Below are positions 1 to 9,155 of a stretch of 64,000 nt of DNA, piece by piece. Location: positions 41,502,758 through 41,566,757 of the forward strand of contig OX485805.1 of assembly GCA_950295325.1 (NCBI GenBank). The letters run 5' to 3'. Every line of letters begins with the position of its first letter. Within the stretch, counting starts at the first letter, position 1. A program made the position numbers and the translations under genes. Origin of the DNA: Polytrichum commune (Eukaryota > Streptophyta > Polytrichopsida > Polytrichales > Polytrichaceae). A model generated the notes under the pieces. That model saw only the letters and a list, made by a program, of their open reading frames with translations. It was not told the origin of the DNA and ran no database searches.

Positions 1-320
1 ATATATTGTTTGGGTATATGCATAGATGTATGTCTATCTATGGATATTGCTAGATACATAGACCATACTCACAGGTGATATTTACAAACGCACGTTCGTA
101 AACTCTTAGCCATCACATGTGATTGAATCATTAATACAAATGCGTTCATTTGTGATTTACGAACGCGCGTTTGTAAACTCTCAATCACCATATATGTTTC
201 AACCAATACTATAAATGCGTTGATTTGTGATTTACGAACGTGCGTTTGTAAACTCTCAACCATCATCTATGTTTGAACCAATACTACAAATGCATTGATT
301 TGTGATTTGTGATTTATATT
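1..320. repeat. Outer-left palindrome repeats
   Basis: No gene is seen. Three near-copies of a 22-bp palindrome (TTTACGAACG, two variable bases, then its complement) start at 81, 156 and 231, exactly 75 bp apart. They lie in a tandem unit that also contains an 'aatgcgttgatttgtgat'-like stretch. The same palindrome builds the arrays at 766-1240 and 4204-4711, but here the spacer sequence and period differ. The repeat may continue left of the window. Confidence 0.7.
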
Positions 321-714
321 TGTACCATAGGTTGGTTGAAGCTTAGAAACATTGGATCTGGATTCGGTTTGCGAAAACCACCTTTGACCAAAAACGTTAG
401 CTAGTCATAAGGATCCGAAAACTCCACTATAGGTTGTAGAAGGTTACAAATGCCAGCTCTAAGCTTATATTATGGAAATAACATCTAAAAGTTGGCCATT
501 CAGACCAAAAACGTGAGCTCGTAGGTAGTGTCCAAGACATATTTTTTAGCCTTAAACGGAAGTTTAAGGCGATCATACGTCAAAGGAGTTTTCTAGAGAT
601 GCACTAGGTTGGGAGGTGTTTTTGCAAGGCTTGGAAATGACTAGCAAGAAAAGAGTTAATGTAGCAAGGAAGGATTGCAAACACCCATCAACAATGGGCT
701 TTCATATATACGTA
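321..714 (+). repeat. Left inverted arm (394 bp)
   Basis: It starts TGTACCATAGGTTGGTTG and ends at CATATATACGTA. Its reverse complement is found at 4777-5170 with only scattered substitutions and small indels. There is no coding potential. Confidence 0.9.
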
Positions 715-765
715 CTATGCAGCATTTGGTTGCTGCGCAGAAGTTTACGAAAATGTGGGCCGATG

Positions 766-1240
766 TTTATGAACGCCCGTTCGTAAATGTGCATCGAGGT
801 TTACGAACGCCCGTTCGTAAATGTGGGCCGAGGTTTACGAACGCACGTTCGTAAATGTGGGCCGAGGTTTACGAACGCACGTTCGTAACTGTGCAGCACT
901 TGGTTGCTGCGCAGAAGCTTACGAAAATGTAGGCCGATGTATACGAACGCCCGTTCGTAAATGTGTGCCGATGTTTACGAACGCACGTTCATAACTGTGC
1001 AGCACTTGGTTGCTGCAAAGAAGTGTACGAAAATGTGGGCCGAGGTTTACGAACGCCCGTTCGTAAATGTGCGCTGACGTTTACGAACGCACGTTCGTAA
1101 CTATGCAGCACTTAGTTGCTGCGCAGAAGTGTACGAAAATGTGGGCCGAGGTTTACGAACGGGCGTTCGTAAATGTGGCGGAGATTTACGAACGCCCGTT
1201 CGTAAATGTGGGCCGACGTTTACGAACGCACGTTCGTAAA
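766..1240. repeat. Left palindrome array, 11 dyads with 34/72-bp period
   Basis: Eleven 22-bp dyads (TTTACGAACG, two bases, CGTTCGTAAA, with few variants) start at 766, 800, 834, 868, 940, 974, 1046, 1080, 1152, 1185 and 1219. The steps are 34, 34, 34, 72, 34, 72, 34, 72, 33 and 34. The alternating 34 + 72 makes a 106-bp higher-order unit. The short linker reads TGTGGGCCGAGG or similar. The long linker adds GTGCAGCACTTGGTTGCTGC, itself partly self-complementary. The 128-aa plus-strand frame across the array is a by-product of the repeat and is not called as a gene. Confidence 0.92.
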
Positions 1241-4203
1241 ACTCCGGAATACGCGGCGGTATATGCGGTGGATATACGTTGTACATACATGAAGTGTGTA
1301 GTGTGGACGTATAGAAATGTGATATTATGCGCGCACTCCTACAAGTCTCTAGAGGAGTCTCTAGAGCATGCCGCAAAAAAGAGCTATGGTGTGGGGGGGA
1401 AGACCTTTAAGTACTGCTCTAGGGCGATTCAAAATCCCTTGGATGCTCTTTAAAAAGCGGATTCCCGCCGCCTACCTTAACCTAACAATATGTCATTCTA
1501 TCCATGCGAAACATGTATGACGCTATGTATGGAACATGTATGGCATGCATGCAACATATTGAAAATATTAATGTCGCTCGCACACCTTAGGTGTTACCAA
1601 GGCCTCAGGATAGAAACATAAATACTATAATAGTCAAATGTTATTGAAATATGATGATGCTTAACATTAAATAAATGATTTGCGACCAAGTTATGAAATC
1701 CAAGTTTTTGGGCAATTGATACCTATATGTTACCAAGGTCTAAGTGATATATATATATACACATATATACAATGAGGTAGGAGTGGGTCAAAATTAGTTG
1801 TGGAGGCCCCTAAAATTGCATATATTATATGATTCACATCAAAACATGTCCAGAATATGCTCACTAAGTGTGTGGCCACCAATAAAAAGTCGGATTAATT
1901 TGGAATGGCTTGTAAGGTAGAGGAAGGATATGATATGAAACCATACCTAGGTATAATGTAGGTCTTAATTTAAGTGCAAACCTAGATGTGGAAAGATTGA
2001 ATTAATCCGGAATGTGTGGCAAGATTGAAATTAATTTGGAATGGTACATAAGGTAGAGTAAGCATATGAATTCAAAACATACCTAGGTCGAGTCACACTA
2101 ATTGCATGTTTTTGCATCCTACGAGAAGTAGGTGCATAACTAAAAGTATTCATTTAAAGTTGAGTCTTAAGACATGCATGTTAGAATAAGATTAAGTATG
2201 GACTGTGTGATCAAAATGCACTCAACATTATTAAGGTGAAAGAGGAAGAATTCCAAACTTCACTTTTGACATAAACCAAAGTTGTATCTCAAATCCAATT
2301 TTGAATCTTGAAATGACAATCGGCATGATTCTCAATAGTTGTTATTAACCGGATGAAGCAATATCCAATCCAACCAACATTGGTAGACCAGTTGGACATG
2401 CCCACATACCACAACATGGCCACATATTTTGAATATTGGTAAGATTAAAAGATTTAGGGATGTAGGGTTTAGGGTTTGGGGTTAGGGTTTGTGAAAGTTG
2501 TGCATGTCCGACAGTTAATACAATAGATTACACACACAAACGATATTGACTACTCAATAGCCCATATTGCACTCACTTAATTATGTAGAATGCACATTTT
2601 ATACTTGCCAAACATCTGATCACATGGCTCAAGTACACTTAGTTCAAGTTGAAGTTAAAGTTCAATGCACTATACAAATGTTAGTTCAAGTTGACACCTA
2701 ATTATATGAATTGATGACATGTTCGAAATTGAATTTCCCTCCACCTCTACTAAAATTAAGTTCACTCCCTCCCCCCAATCTCAAATTGTGTATTTTATGA
2801 AGCTAATAATGATTAGAGGAACTAATGAACAACTTGAAAGATATTTCATTCTTGAAAACATTATATTTCAAAACACCATATGAGCATCCTTGGGGTTGGA
2901 TTCTTCAACAAATTTCTACTAAATGATGTGCATTGTTCACTACAAATTTATACTCCCTATGTACCTAATGTTTACAAAAGAACCAAATGTATAGGGACTA
3001 ATAGAATGGGGAGAAAAAATTCATTTGTATTTATACTAAGCTATTCAAATCAATATGATAAACACCTATACTACATATACATAATACAAAACATGAATTA
3101 AGCATGCCTTCATTACTTACAAATTCTACTTTTATTTTCATGCAAGAGAGTCATCGAACGTTTTTCCATCCTAACAAGTATGGACAAGGTAGTCATATGA
3201 CTGCCTCCATAATATGACAACAATTCATGTATCGTAACTTGGATGAAACTAACACATTTCAATGGTAACAAATTCCCTCCCCGCCCCCACCCCTATCCCA
3301 TCCCATCCCATCCCATCCCATCCCATCCCATCCCCTCCCCACACCCCATCCCACCACATCCCAACCCTTCCCACGTGCAGGAGGCCACGTAGCAACGATA
3401 GGGAAACCCTAACGGCGTTGGCTACCTCCCCGCACCCCTTCTTCTCCTTTCATTGTCATTTGGAGCATAGAAAGAAGAAGCGGAACGCTAAGCACATGCG
3501 GAGCGGAGCTCTTGTCATTTCTTACTCATATATTTTCTTTGTTTTGTTGGCGCTCGTGTTTGAGAGTCGCAGATCTCTTTTGAGAGTTGCAAGTTTGCTA
3601 GTAGAGAGCTTGAGAGCTACAAACTTGAAAGTTGCATACACATAAGAGTTGTTGCAAGGGTATGTATGTAACGTGCGAGGGCTTAAGAGTGTGAGGGAGG
3701 AATGACTAATGTGAGGGTGCAGTAGATTGAATTTACAATTCTGAGGTTTTCGAAGTTTTTCACTAAATGAGGAAGCACAAGTTTTGGATGTATACCAATT
3801 CAACGTGCATAGTGTAATCCTCCTGAACTCACTTCCTTCACATTTTGAAATTTTTTTCATTGTTGAATTCCATGTGTTTTTTTCCATGTATGTTGAGCTT
3901 TGGCATGTTTTGTTTGCAAGCTTCCCCATGTTTTTCGATTTAGTGTTCTCTCACAACCTGAAACTCAATTTTGATTTCATTCGGTTGTTTCAATTTTTAT
4001 CGTTCTCAATTTTTATCTTCACTTGCAGTATGCAAAGGCACCAATTCAAGGTTGATAGGTATCAATCACAAACCAAAAGTGGCAAGATGCAATGGACAAA
4101 TTACTGATACATATCAACCACTCCATTATAGACCAATGCATATTTGTATTTGTTTATATATGAATATAAAAACCATATGTACATGCGTAAATACCGGAGC
4201 ATG
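1241..4203. other. Interior of the foldback-like element, no recognisable gene
   Basis: Mostly AT-rich DNA with only short frames and no known domain. Small features are an interstitial telomere-like tract with TTTAGGG-type repeats at 2461-2492 and a TCCCA microsatellite at about 3296-3333. From about 3380 to 3650 there is a more GC-rich stretch with CCCTAACGGCG. It could be a captured promoter or 5' UTR fragment, but nothing identifies a source gene. Confidence 0.5.
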
Positions 4204-4711
4204 TTTACGAACGGGCGTTCGTAAACTTCAGCGCAACAACCAAGTGCTGCACAGTTACGAACGTGCGTTCGTAAACTTCTGCGCAGCAGCCAAGTGCTGC
4301 ACAGTTAGTAAATGTACGCCGACTTTTACAAACGGGCGTTCGTAAACCTCGGCCCACATTTACGAACGGGCGTTCGTTAACCTCGGCCCACATTTACGAA
4401 CGGGCGTTCGTAAACCTCGGCCCACATTTTCGTAAACTTCTGCGCAACAACGAAGTGCTGCACAGTTAGTAAATGTGCGCCGACTTTTACGAACGGGCGT
4501 TCGTAAACCTCGGCCCACATTTTCGTAAACTTCTGCTCATCAACCAAGTGTTGCACTGTTACGAACGTGCGTTTGTAAACCTCGACGAGTATTTACAAAT
4601 GCGCGTTTGTAAACCTTGGCCAACAACAAAGGTTGCATATTTACGAACATGCAATTGTGAACTTCGGCGTAATAACCAAGGGCTGCATGTTTACAAATAC
4701 ACGCTCATAAA
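4204..4711. repeat. Right palindrome array, about 10 dyads
   Basis: Inverted counterpart of the left array. Dyads start at about 4204, 4254, 4325, 4359, 4393, 4486, 4558, 4592, 4640 and 4690. Spacings of 34 and 71-72 recur, but the inward and outward ends are more degenerate than in the left array. The linker is CTCGGCCCACA, the complement of the left linker. Confidence 0.88.
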
Positions 4712-4776
4712 CCTTGGCTACATACAATGAAAATGTGCACCACCCCCCTGCTACAATAATCAATAGCGAATAGGAG

Positions 4777-5170
4777 TACGTATATATGAAAGCCCATTGT
4801 TAATGGGTGTTTGCAGTCCTTCCTTGCTACATTAATTATGTTGTTGCTAGTCATTTCCAAGCCTTGCAAAAACACCTCCCAACCTAGTGCATCTCTAGAA
4901 AACTCCTTTGACGTATGATCGCCTTAAACTTATGTTTAAGGCTTAAAAATATGTCTTGGACACTACCTACGAGCTCACGTTTTTGGTCTGAATGGCCAAC
5001 TTTTAGATGTTGTTTCCATAATATAAGCTTAGAGCTGGCATCTCTAACCTTCTACAACCTATAGTGGAGTTTTCGGGTCCTTATGACTAGCTGACGTTTT
5101 TGGTCAAAGGTGGTTTTCGCAAACCGAATCCAGATCCAACGTTTCTAAGCTTCAACCAACCTATGGTACA
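4777..5170 (-). repeat. Right inverted arm (394 bp)
   Basis: Reverse complement of 321-714, running from TACGTATATATGAAAGCCC to CCAACCTATGGTACA. It is the same length as the left arm, which argues that the two arms are a matched pair and not a chance rearrangement. Confidence 0.9.
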
Positions 5171-6203
5171 TTTTTCAAGTCATTCTAACTATTTGCTCTA
5201 GACGTCTCCTATGAGTGTCACGTTCGCGCATACCCACCCTTTCTACTTTCTAATGCATTCTTTGTTCCTACATGACAAGTTGTCCAATGCACATTTTCAA
5301 TAACACCTTCAACACCTTTGTCTTGCCAACACTAAGGACTATGTTATCTTAGAAGGAGAGCAGTAATAGGAGAATGCCAACAATGAATCTACTCTTCAAA
5401 TCCCTCTTTCAACACTTTGTTGCTTGTTTTCCAAGACTGTTGTCCGTCTGGACTGCCTCACATTTCTAGGTCTAAACTTACAAGCATACACACCTTCTCT
5501 AAGAGTCTAAGCTATCTTCACATATGTGTACTAAGAGAGCCAAAAGGTTCTAGGACAATCTTTATATACCTCAAAACAACTACCTACTAGGTGGGTCAAC
5601 TTGGTAGGTTACCACCCTGTCAAAACACTGCAACTAGCTGTCCTCACGCGTTTTTGCCCTTTGTCCAATACATGACCAACTGGCACATTGAGGTCATAAA
5701 AAATGATCAACTAGTCAAAGAAATGCAATGCTATTTAATAACTTTGGACCAACAAGTCATTATCTGACCAACTAAATTATTAACACCAAATAATTACTAC
5801 TACTGAATAAATTGCTCAGTAGTAAAACAGTAAAGAACCAATTAGTGGACGTTTTAACAACTAATTGCATTAGGGACAAATTTGACGTCAACTAGTAAAC
5901 TAGCATTCTTTTGCCCTTTCGACAATTCGTGTCCAACTAGTCAGTTTTTGATGGGTTGGTTTACTATGAACATTTTATGTTCTTAAAACACGGTGCTAAC
6001 TTCTACCTTAACTTCTATCTTATCTATGTTTGTGCAAATAAACGAAACCACTATACATATTTGCAAACACACATTCGTAAAAATACGTAATGTTGATTTA
6101 CACATTACACATTACACTGATTTACGAACGGTTGTTCGTAAATATGCTACCAAAATCTACTTTAACAATTGAATGTGGATATACTTTATATTGTGCATAA
6201 AGT
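5171..6203. other. Intergenic; two outlying palindromes at the right end
   Basis: No gene recognised. Two further copies of the 22-bp palindrome family lie at about 6060-6081 (degenerate) and 6121-6142, mirroring the outlying copies at 81-252 on the other side of the arms. Confidence 0.5.
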
Positions 6204-6574
6204 ATGGTTTTGGAGAACACGGTGCCCATTTTCAAGTTCCTCATCTGTGATCTCCCAAGCCCTTGCCTCGTTCTCGGCCAAGAAGTATGCGATGAGCTAA
6301 TTGACAAGAATGGTGTGCCAATGCCCAAGTTGGTGGTCGAGGCGGAGGGCAACATTTCCTCAAGGTCTTGAGGTCCAGGTTGTGGCTAGAAGTCCCCCTA
6401 TTGGAGGGAGTCCCCCACGGGAGCTGGCCAACTCCAGAGAACACCCTCCTCATCGACGACAACACCGCCAAGAGCCTTCTTTGTCCCCTCCTATTCTTTC
6501 ACCGTTGCTCTCATTTTCTTGCATCTGCATGTTATGCACTTTACGAGCGCCCATCCCAAACCGCCCCTCCTTAA
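6204..6574 (+). pseudogene. FCP1-like HAD phosphatase fragment (frameshifted relic)
   Basis: From ATG 6204 one frame reads a stretch containing ENTVPIFKFLICDLP and LVLGQEVCDELIDKNG, then hits TGA at 6369-6371. A second frame, shifted near 6368, continues with WLEVPLLEGV and ENTLLIDDNTAKSLL (6437-6481) and ends at 6574. The LLIDD plus following lysine layout resembles the last motif of the FCP1/NIF-type HAD phosphatase domain, and the preceding segment fits the region just before it. The N-terminal DxDxT nucleophile motif is not visible, so this is at most the C-terminal half. The frameshift and missing catalytic start suggest a dead fragment. The family call rests on pattern recognition only. 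Confidence 0.42.
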
Positions 6575-7709
6575 TTTACCCACTCCACTCTGTCTATGAT
6601 ATTGTTTCACAGGTCGCTCCACGCTCGTTTGGTGGCCGACCCTCCTTGACTTCTTCATTGGAGACGCACACAACTCAAGGTTGCATCTTCCGAGTCCGAT
6701 CGTTGTTTGGCCCTCTGGAGAAGTGCAAGACATTCTCTCTTGCAGATGCCTTTGTATTCCACTACAATACCACTTCGTACAATTCGGGAGCGCATTTGGA
6801 CATATTGAAGAACGACACATATTCGAGGCCAGTCAACAAACTTGGCTATAGTTGCGGGCCGGAGATTTTCAAAGCTATAGAGGCCATTGGAGCATTACAG
6901 AGAGAAGCCACCGTAAAAGATATGGACATGGCCGCGAGAAAAAATATAGTGGGACGTACTAAGGTACAAATACCTATAACCGATAACTTAAGCATTTCAG
7001 CATAGCATATCTCGGGTTATCGAGAAGGAGTTTATTTTTGTGCGTAGGAAAATAAGGTTCATGAAGAATGAGCTTTTTTTCAAAATTGATTAAATAAAAT
7101 TAGAATTACTACAATTTTTTTTGTTCGAAAGTTGGTTTGAGCCCATAACCAACATATAGCTTCACCCATGACCAACAACAACTATTTTGACAACTTCCCC
7201 TCCACGAAGTCATATGGTCCTCACGTTTTATATATAAAAATAACGACTTCTAGTAAAGCCATGTGCGTTTATGCATAACTCTACTTATCGGTGATGGGTG
7301 CGTTATCGGTTATGGGTGTCTATACCTTAGTGGGACTATAAACGCCTACGGACTCCCTAAATGTGTGTAGGGGTAGAGCATAGTGCTTGGTTATCCATTC
7401 TATTTGAAGGTCTTCAAGACATTAATGGTATTTCCATTATGTTTGTATTTCAAACCCGTTGAATAGATTCAATTTCCAATCATTCTCCACATCTTCCTTT
7501 CCATTAGCAACAATTTGTCATTTTATACACATATGTTTTCATGTATGGTTCATTTTTTTGTTCACTTTGATGCATTTATGTTGATGATTATATCCAATGT
7601 TATACGTATGGTATTTTAATGTTGTTAACATTGGCTCAAATTTGAAAACCACGTCCTTGAATAGTCTCAAAATCATCAAAAAGTCTCCGATTACTGAATA
7701 TAGTGTTTT
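6575..7709. other. Intergenic, nothing firm
   Basis: A plus-strand frame stays open to 7005 and ends with a hydrophilic stretch (GPEIFKAIEAIGALQREAT), but I recognise no family. It may be more of the decayed FCP1-like locus. The remainder is AT-rich with no signal. Confidence 0.35.
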
Positions 7710-9155
7710 CATTTAAAGGGGAGCCTGGGAGAGGATGGCTCATAATACTAGTAAGCACTTGGATCCCCTTTGTGGAGGTCGGAGTGGATAAAGCGTATGC
7801 AGTGTGTACGTTTGACAAATTTCATTTGACGTTCAACTTGAAATCTAAAGTGTCATGTGACATTTTCAAAAACGAAAATGAATGTCAATCGACATCCACA
7901 TTTTCTTGTAAAATGTCATTTCAATGTCACGTGTCTAGTAGTATGTGTCATTTCAATTTTTTTAAATGTCAATTGATGCGTGGTTTTTTTGTTGACAAGT
8001 CAAACTACATGTCAAAATCTAAATTGTGCGTGTCAATTGATGTGCATTTCATTTCTATGCAATTTTTTGCGTGTCAAATGCCAAAAACTTGCAATTCTTT
8101 TGTCACACATATACACTGAGTGTATGTTTGTAATATGAAGTGGTGTTCACAAGGCCATGGCTATAGGAGACAGGGGGAATTATCGTATGTGAGCGTACCT
8201 CTCATTCATTCAATATAAAAGCCTTGAAATATAGCAATACCATTACCACTTTAGCACTTATTAAATTATTTAAAGGAAAACCACATATTTGGAAATGGTA
8301 AATTTAAAATATAAAAAATTAATATGGGAAATTTGATTTTCCTTTGAATCCGGGATTGTCGAATTTAAAAGAGAAATGACAATGAATAGTTGCCTACAAA
8401 TGGCCAAGTGGTAAAGGTACTACATCAATCTGTGCACTATGTCCCTTTCAATGGTAAGTCACAAAAAGCATGACCTCAATGCTAATGAGGGTTTGGTAAT
8501 GTTTTTGACTTCCAAGTTTATTCCATGCTTTATCAACGGATCCACTTCGAAAATGAAATCCCAGTCAATTGCTTATTTACTCAATGGATGTGAACATATA
8601 TATTGGATTTTGGACTTTGAAGATGAAGTGCACTCAATATGGGTTATATGGTCAAGCGACCTTCAAGAATGCAAGGGCAATTTTATTTTTCAAAGTCGGA
8701 CAGAGCGGGCAGGGAGCATGGACTTCATCCCGGCAGTGAAGCGACCGTGCCCGGCGAGGAACCCAACCCTGGCCATATGTGATCTAGCCTGATGCGTATT
8801 TTGAGAGGAGATGCTCAAAGTATAAGATGGGGGGGAGGGGTCTGTAACTTAATGTGCAAGTCCTTGCCCAATCCATGAGATTTAGTTTTTGACCTCGATA
8901 AAATTTGGAACAAGTGTGAATGGGAGTAGCTCATACATGTGGAAGAAATGATGAAGTAGAGTGAGAAGCATAGATAATGGGGGGGGGGAGGTTTAACTTA
9001 GGAGGTCGAGAGAACAAGGTGCGTCCTCGTGATCTTATCGCTCATGTTTTTCTTATAGCTCATGGTTGGGAAGAACTAGCTTTTGAAAAATACACATCAC
9101 TCTATTTTGGTGGAAGTTGCACCCAAGGGGAATTCTAACCTGTTTACCACATAGC
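7710..9155 (+). repeat. Repeat R2, copy A
   Basis: It is homologous along its length to 28269-29430 (copy B) and is about 1.12 kb without its 327-bp insertion. It starts CATTTAAAGGGGAGCCTGG and ends CTAACC...TTTACCACATAGC. The central part (about 8440-8720) is also found in inverted orientation inside repeat R1 at about 16600-16880 and 24480-24760. Short frames inside are repeat-derived and not called as genes. G-runs occur near 8830 and 8980. Confidence 0.85.
7800..8118. mobile_element. 319-bp hAT-like MITE inside R2 copy A
   Basis: The ends are imperfect inverted repeats beginning CAGTGTGTACGTTTGACAAA and, read inward from the other side, CAGTGTATATGTGTGACAAA. Flanking bases are AGCGTATG (7792-7799) and AGTGTATG (8119-8126), an 8-bp duplication with one mismatch, as expected for hAT elements. 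The matching place in R2 copy B (about 28350) has only one AGTGTGTG and no insert. The interior is rich in TGTCA motifs. A fragment of the same family lies inverted at about 17725-17850. Confidence 0.78.

Follow-up and report, generated by a model that had tools for sequence, protein, structure and literature searches.

The stretch of Polytrichum commune DNA analysed here, referred to as the window, comprises 64,000 nucleotides of contig OX485805.1 (assembly GCA_950295325.1, positions 41,502,758 to 41,566,757), and the feature under study, at window positions 321-5170, is a pair of inverted arms, each followed inward by an array of short palindromes. This feature is the interior of a 9.4-kb DNA transposon with inverted ends of approximately 28 bp and a 4-bp target duplication. 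The explanation of the whole that we regard as likely is that of a non-autonomous transposon of a type marked by the protein domain DUF7869, in which the palindromes, 22-bp dyads of the form TTTACGAACG-NN-CGTTCGTAAA, would be sites for a family-specific protein. In a preliminary description the feature had been regarded as a possible new Foldback or Mutator-like family, or as a structure using its dyads for protein binding.

The arms are 396 nt long, not 394 bp as described before, are 96% complementary to each other and enclose 4,058 nt. Matched inverted arms with inward arrays were described correctly, but the arms are not the ends of the element. The sequence beyond both arms is common to 9/9 copies (the window copy and eight fetched copies, all with both arms), so that the arms are internal, and their role as element ends was ruled out. 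In the search of the genome (408 Mb in 64 contigs) with the arm, all scored matches, the best 40 of 191 candidates, were at least 96% identical. Arm starts with up to three mismatches were found 60 times, using a pattern that misses arms with an 8-bp insertion as seen in three left arms. All but one of these (59/60; the exception is C3:35820691) adjoin a listed end of the larger element, for which reason a separate mobile existence of the arms elsewhere was also rejected. Comparison of three copies with 10 kb of flanking sequence placed the end AACACTATATTCGNTAATCGGAGACTTT on both sides, with one base changed at the right end of the window copy. The whole element extends from C3:41501047, 1,711 bp to the left of the window, to C3:41510464 (window position 7707) and measures 9,418 bp including a nested insertion. 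An arm pair lying only 1.4 kb apart (C6:9712686-9714116) appears to be a derivative that has lost most of its interior.

The pattern of the ends, with up to three mismatches, occurs 1,127 times in forward and 1,141 times in reverse orientation across the genome, compared with none for the control. From the scored lists, i.e., the best 40 of 804 left and the best 40 of 740 right candidates, at least 32 paired ends were obtained, 27 of which span 8,955-10,900 bp. Flanking sequence was examined for 23 of these 32 pairs. A 4-bp target duplication was found by script in 20 of 21 copies and in 22 of 23 when two copies with a changed end base, read by eye, are added; among these 23 copies, L032/L033 is the only one for which it was not found. 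The fourth base is A or T in all 21 tabulated duplications. A duplication of 3 or 5 bp, which had been possible from three copies, was dropped after 20 further copies. Moreover, when the two flanks of copy B are joined, the resulting sequence matches repeats elsewhere in the genome without interruption, at best with 100% identity over 296/296 positions; among the best 40 of 480 candidates, 39 cover positions 1-296 and one covers 2-296. In copy B, the whole element was thus inserted into a repeat and duplicated one 4-bp site there. The mobile family anticipated in the preliminary description, with copies sharing their ends at different places and an empty site, is thus borne out.

A longer relative with a probable transposase, of the kind that the same description had recommended looking for, was found in the coding copy D (C1:25750628-25766739; 16,112 bp), which has the same ends as the window element and carries an ACCT duplication on both sides. 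Its left side encodes, on the minus strand, a protein with the DUF7869 domain (PF25273; Pfam E-value 4e-40), which is the probable transposase of the coding element. Its right side contains, on the plus strand, three adjacent open reading frames (ORFs), which we read as exons of one gene on the basis of their arrangement, followed by an FCP1-like phosphatase (NIF, E-value 7.2e-16). Seven ORFs of the coding element were scanned against Pfam at E-values up to 1, and only DUF7869 and NIF were above the cut-off. DUF7869 is very common in this genome, with at least 150 matches, all above the cut-off (best 150 of 1,490 candidates), and a comparison of the DUF7869 protein with the PDB yielded only a chance-level match. 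The phosphatase ORF lies at L056 3923-4705 and is perhaps a captured host gene.

The product of the middle gene of D, named here DGQH after a motif, is present in at least 150 copies (best 150 of 955 candidates). Its ratio of nonsynonymous to synonymous divergence (dN/dS) is 0.03-0.07 in eight diverged pairs, in which the synonymous divergence (dS) is saturated (1.3-2.7), indicating a strongly constrained protein; the ratio for D and L054 is 0.10, and that for L059-L060, a close pair, is 0.41. The central domain of the gene (L055 8802 to L056 3334) is near-invariant, with a mean column identity of 95% in four copies. DGQH matched no Pfam family and, in NCBIfam, gave only a weak DGQHR match (E-value 0.55). 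Nothing meaningful was found in the PDB with the single sequence or a profile of four sequences, no match was found in PHROGs or PADLOC, and none of 83 pattern matches in viral contigs was confirmed. The silent divergence between D and L054 is uneven, with a dS of 0.03 on the side of the DUF7869 gene and 0.23 on the DGQH side, which suggests that parts may have been exchanged between subfamilies.

The window copy aligns with D in colinear blocks, mostly of 65-79% identity, from which the DUF7869 and DGQH genes are gone. It had been described as lacking a transposase, and none was recognised here either: the Pfam scan of three window-copy ORFs gave no family at E-values up to 0.1, and a tblastn comparison of the 64-kb window with six ORFs of the coding element recovered nothing but the relic of the phosphatase gene. 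If the proteins of D are the machinery for the window element, as we infer, the window copy is non-autonomous.

The 10-2-10 dyads exceed what is expected by chance. With at most one mismatch between the two dyad arms, 24 occur within window positions 1-7707. By comparison, ten mononucleotide shuffles contained 0.4 on average and never more than 1, and two 10-kb control stretches taken from the window contained a single one apiece. Similar dyads are also located outside the arms (Table 1). In the whole genome, TTTACGAACG-NN-CGTTCGTAAA has 2,909 exact copies and the backward-read pattern has none. In D, the arrays at element positions 4139-4911 and 8246-8856 flank a 3.3-kb core between the divergent genes, with further dyads inside the right-hand gene region, and the window element has the same core between its arrays.

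Constraint on the dyads was examined in six copies of the coding family, giving 15 pairs, 13 of them diverged. Dyads were chosen by similarity in one member of a pair only, with up to five mismatches, which introduces a slight bias toward conservation. In the diverged pairs, the half-sites differ at 1-6% of positions, compared with 23-28% for the spacers (within 70 bp) and 18-20% for the rest, and the two central bases differ at 29-63%, although these are small numbers of 6-24 positions per pair. For six diverged pairs, Fisher tests comparing half-sites with spacers gave p values from 2e-5 to 1e-11. The close pair D-L054 shows 1.8% in half-sites against 7.8% in spacers, and the window-type copies overall show 2.3-4.2% against 4.7-6.6%. 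The outermost two bases on each side of the dyad hold 138 of 312 mismatches. We read these patterns as dyads that would be constrained along active lineages, with individual dead copies decaying freely, at CpG sites. The suggestion that the dyads serve for protein binding is supported as far as candidate sites are concerned.

The same geometry recurs with other letters in further DUF7869 elements. In family 2 (L062, L063), the DUF7869 protein is 53% identical to that of D over 257 aa and 39% identical over 437 aa for the N-terminal part. No copy of the first dyad was found in these two loci, which instead carry an array of CCCACGGGTG-NN-CACCCGTGGG upstream of the DUF7869 gene and another between two exon-like ORFs; every difference between the half-sites CCCACGGGTG and TTTACGAACG is a transition. 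A pattern that covers this second class but excludes the first dyad occurs 1,083 times per strand in the genome, compared with none for the control, those listed being mainly of the CCCACGGGTG, CCCACGGGCG and CTCACGGGTG types. Of six further DUF7869 loci, L064 and L068 carry the second dyad, and L065 and L066 (family 3; 33-34% identity) carry a third, GGGTGAGGCA-NN-TGCCTCACCC, in 59-61-bp arrays, with few exact dyads (three in L065, one in L066). Dyad arrays of this geometry are thus present in the window family (A, the window copy, with B, C, D, L054 and L058-L061), in family 2 (L062, L063, L064 and L068) and in family 3 (L065 and L066). That the half-sites differ between the families while the geometry is the same is what a joint evolution of each site and its own protein would predict. 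A tblastn search for DGQH in 10 kb of L062 found nothing, a stretch that may be too short.

The best reading of the dyads is that a family-specific protein of the element would recognise them, in the service of gene control, mobility or both. The machinery would be supplied by the coding relatives of approximately 16 kb with the same ends, and each dyad would be bound by a probably dimeric, element-encoded protein, with one 10-bp half-site per subunit and the two central bases free. Candidates for the binder are the DUF7869 protein, which is common to all three families, or a partner such as DGQH. The position of the arrays in the coding element, close to both divergent gene starts, suggests that they are probably control regions, and their retention and multiplication in the gene-less element suggests that they probably also serve movement in cis. 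In a broader form, which we put forward tentatively and hold to be possible, the elements would belong to a little-described superfamily marked by DUF7869, in which the letters of the family-specific 10-2-10 dyads co-evolve with a dimeric protein encoded by the element, and the dyad arrays form a private address that switches the genes of the element and marks its non-autonomous copies for mobilisation.

Alternatively, the dyads might only regulate the two divergent genes, as operators or enhancers, and be leftovers without a role in movement in the non-autonomous copies. The location between the divergent gene starts fits this explanation, as does the family 2 array directly upstream of the DUF7869 gene, and the window element retains parts of the core too, so that retention need not imply use. 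On the other hand, between 9 and 27 exact dyads persist in each of three copies of the gene-less subfamily, although its spacers have diverged past alignment with the coding element, and the arrays were duplicated along with the arm; we consider regulation without movement unlikely, though deserving of attention. Far less probable is that the arrays are homogenised satellite-like repeats, or hairpin DNA or RNA acting as a source of small RNA, with no binding protein. Array length does vary among copies, tandem units are near-identical within a copy, and the inverted arm-array modules could yield a long hairpin transcript, yet homogenisation would preserve spacers and central bases along with the half-sites, whereas both differ far more than the half-sites do, and pairing alone leaves unexplained why one 10-2-10 geometry is kept in three families whose letters differ. 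Finally, a Foldback or Mutator-like element with the 396-bp arms as its boundaries, which the presence of long inverted arms and adjoining repeat arrays might suggest, is so improbable that it can be set aside, given the outer sequence shared by all nine copies, the arm starts adjoining the ends of the larger element and the 4-bp duplications at the real ends.

Several observations weigh against a DUF7869-type transposon with protein-binding dyads. DUF7869 has no known function, and the role of its protein as transposase is deduced from abundance and from acidic motifs seen by eye; the N-terminal ORF of its gene is weakly constrained, with dN/dS values of 0.36, 0.43 and 0.81 in three pairs. 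The close pair L059-L060 shows no constraint on the dyads (4.2% against 3.8%, p 0.71), and for the window copy (A) and B the difference is 3.8% against 6.0% (p 0.075). Only 101 of the 312 dyad mismatches are CpG transitions, which weakens the account of decay at CpG sites. The number of dyads varies, with 31-51 sites in three copies at up to four mismatches, which implies that the exact number is not critical. No dyad array was found in the stretch fetched at L067 and L069, two of the six further DUF7869 loci, and the central positions of the family 3 dyad do not vary freely, as the second central base is A in 97% of 30 L065 sites.

With regard to known superfamilies, membership in Foldback, Mutator-like and CACTA elements each fails at least one tested feature. 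Foldback elements have long inverted arms with repeat arrays, which the window element resembles; its arms, however, are internal in 9/9 copies and without target duplication, and this identity does not hold. Mutator-like elements (MULEs) make a target duplication of 8-11 bp, unlike the 4 bp found here; no match for an 8- or 9-bp duplication was found in 21 copies with offsets tried, and the Pfam scan contained no MULE family among the seven ORFs of the coding element, a genome-wide MULE search not having been made, so that this identity was also abandoned. The CACTA (En/Spm) elements end in CACTA...TAGTG directly flanked by a 3-bp duplication and have subterminal binding sites for a second protein. 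The window family shares with them a large size, numerous short repeats as candidate sites for a protein of the element, many deletion derivatives that keep these sites, and ends that contain CACTA. It differs in its ends AACACTA...TAGTGTT, in a duplication of 4 bp instead of 3 bp, and in dyads that lie at least 4 kb inside the coding element, compared with sites adjoining the ends in CACTA; no CACTA transposase family was among the seven ORFs scanned. Sola1 has been reported from Physcomitrella, and Sola2 has 4-bp AT-rich target duplications, as given in the available excerpts of the two descriptions (PMC9033089; PMC3627910). The 4-bp target duplication (compared with Sola2, PMC3627910), the short inverted ends and the plant-like host resemble Sola, but such dyad arrays are not mentioned in those excerpts (PMC9033089; PMC3627910). 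There is also a likeness in kind to the DUF7869 (PF25273) elements of the same genome, in that a copy encoding DUF7869 has the same inverted ends; the window copy differs in having lost the DUF7869 gene. In the open-licence full text searched, no description of DUF7869 was found, and among the matches listed for the dyad and end strings there was no paper with transposon in its title and the end string was absent.

The arm-plus-array modules of the window element are inverted duplicates with 78.5% identity over 969 columns. The inverted module is missing from the four coding copies D, L058, L059 and L061, in which inverted matches reach 37 bp at most. The arms of nine copies show no fixed difference between left and right; their identity is 97.9% between left arms, 98.3% between right arms and 97.5% between left and right within a copy, and in L008 both arms are identical (395/395). 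The absence of a fixed difference and the identical arms of L008 indicate that the duplication predates the spread of the subfamily, with some exchange between arms. The one-off inverted duplication that had been considered as an alternative is therefore borne out in part: the module is an inverted duplication, one that arose before the subfamily spread and that the four coding copies lack. The inverted arms are best explained as a derived duplication specific to one subfamily and not required for movement generally.

The features of the window copy are summarised in Table 1. The nested inverted-repeat element is 364 bp long, and copies B and C carry the empty site. The core contains a CCCAT microsatellite of period 5 at 3286-3373.

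Table 1. Features of the transposon copy within the window (window positions).
Feature	Position	Strand	Basis
In-window portion of the whole element	1..7707	+	Three-way copy comparison and end searches
Outer-left array, 75-bp period, degenerate dyads, outside the left arm	80..308	+	
Left 396-bp inverted arm, lying within the element	321..716	+	
Left dyad array, 22-bp TTTACGAACG-NN-CGTTCGTAAA and variants	766..1240	+	
Core between arrays, blockwise colinear with the core that separates the divergent genes in the coding element	1251..4203	+	
Right dyad array, forming together with the right arm an inverted copy of the left module (78.5%, 969 columns)	4204..4711	+	
Right inverted arm, 396 bp	4775..5170	-	
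Two more dyads outside the right arm	6060..6142 (6060-6081, 6121-6142)	+	
Relic of NIF/FCP1-like phosphatase gene, two pieces, 68-72% aa identity to the ORF of the coding element	6201..6487	+	tblastn
Nested small inverted-repeat element, window copy only, TA duplication, site empty in copies B and C	6962..7325	+	
Right terminal inverted repeat	7680..7707	-	
Right copy of the 4-bp target duplication TTCA; left copy beyond the window	7708..7711	+	

With several transposon families in one genome, each with hundreds or thousands of copies of its own dyad in one geometry, a testable system is at hand, in which the co-change of a transposon protein and its DNA site could be followed, as well as the reasons why the families do not cross-mobilise. 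Furthermore, DUF7869, a domain without an assigned function, is tied here to elements whose ends are defined and whose target duplication measures 4 bp.

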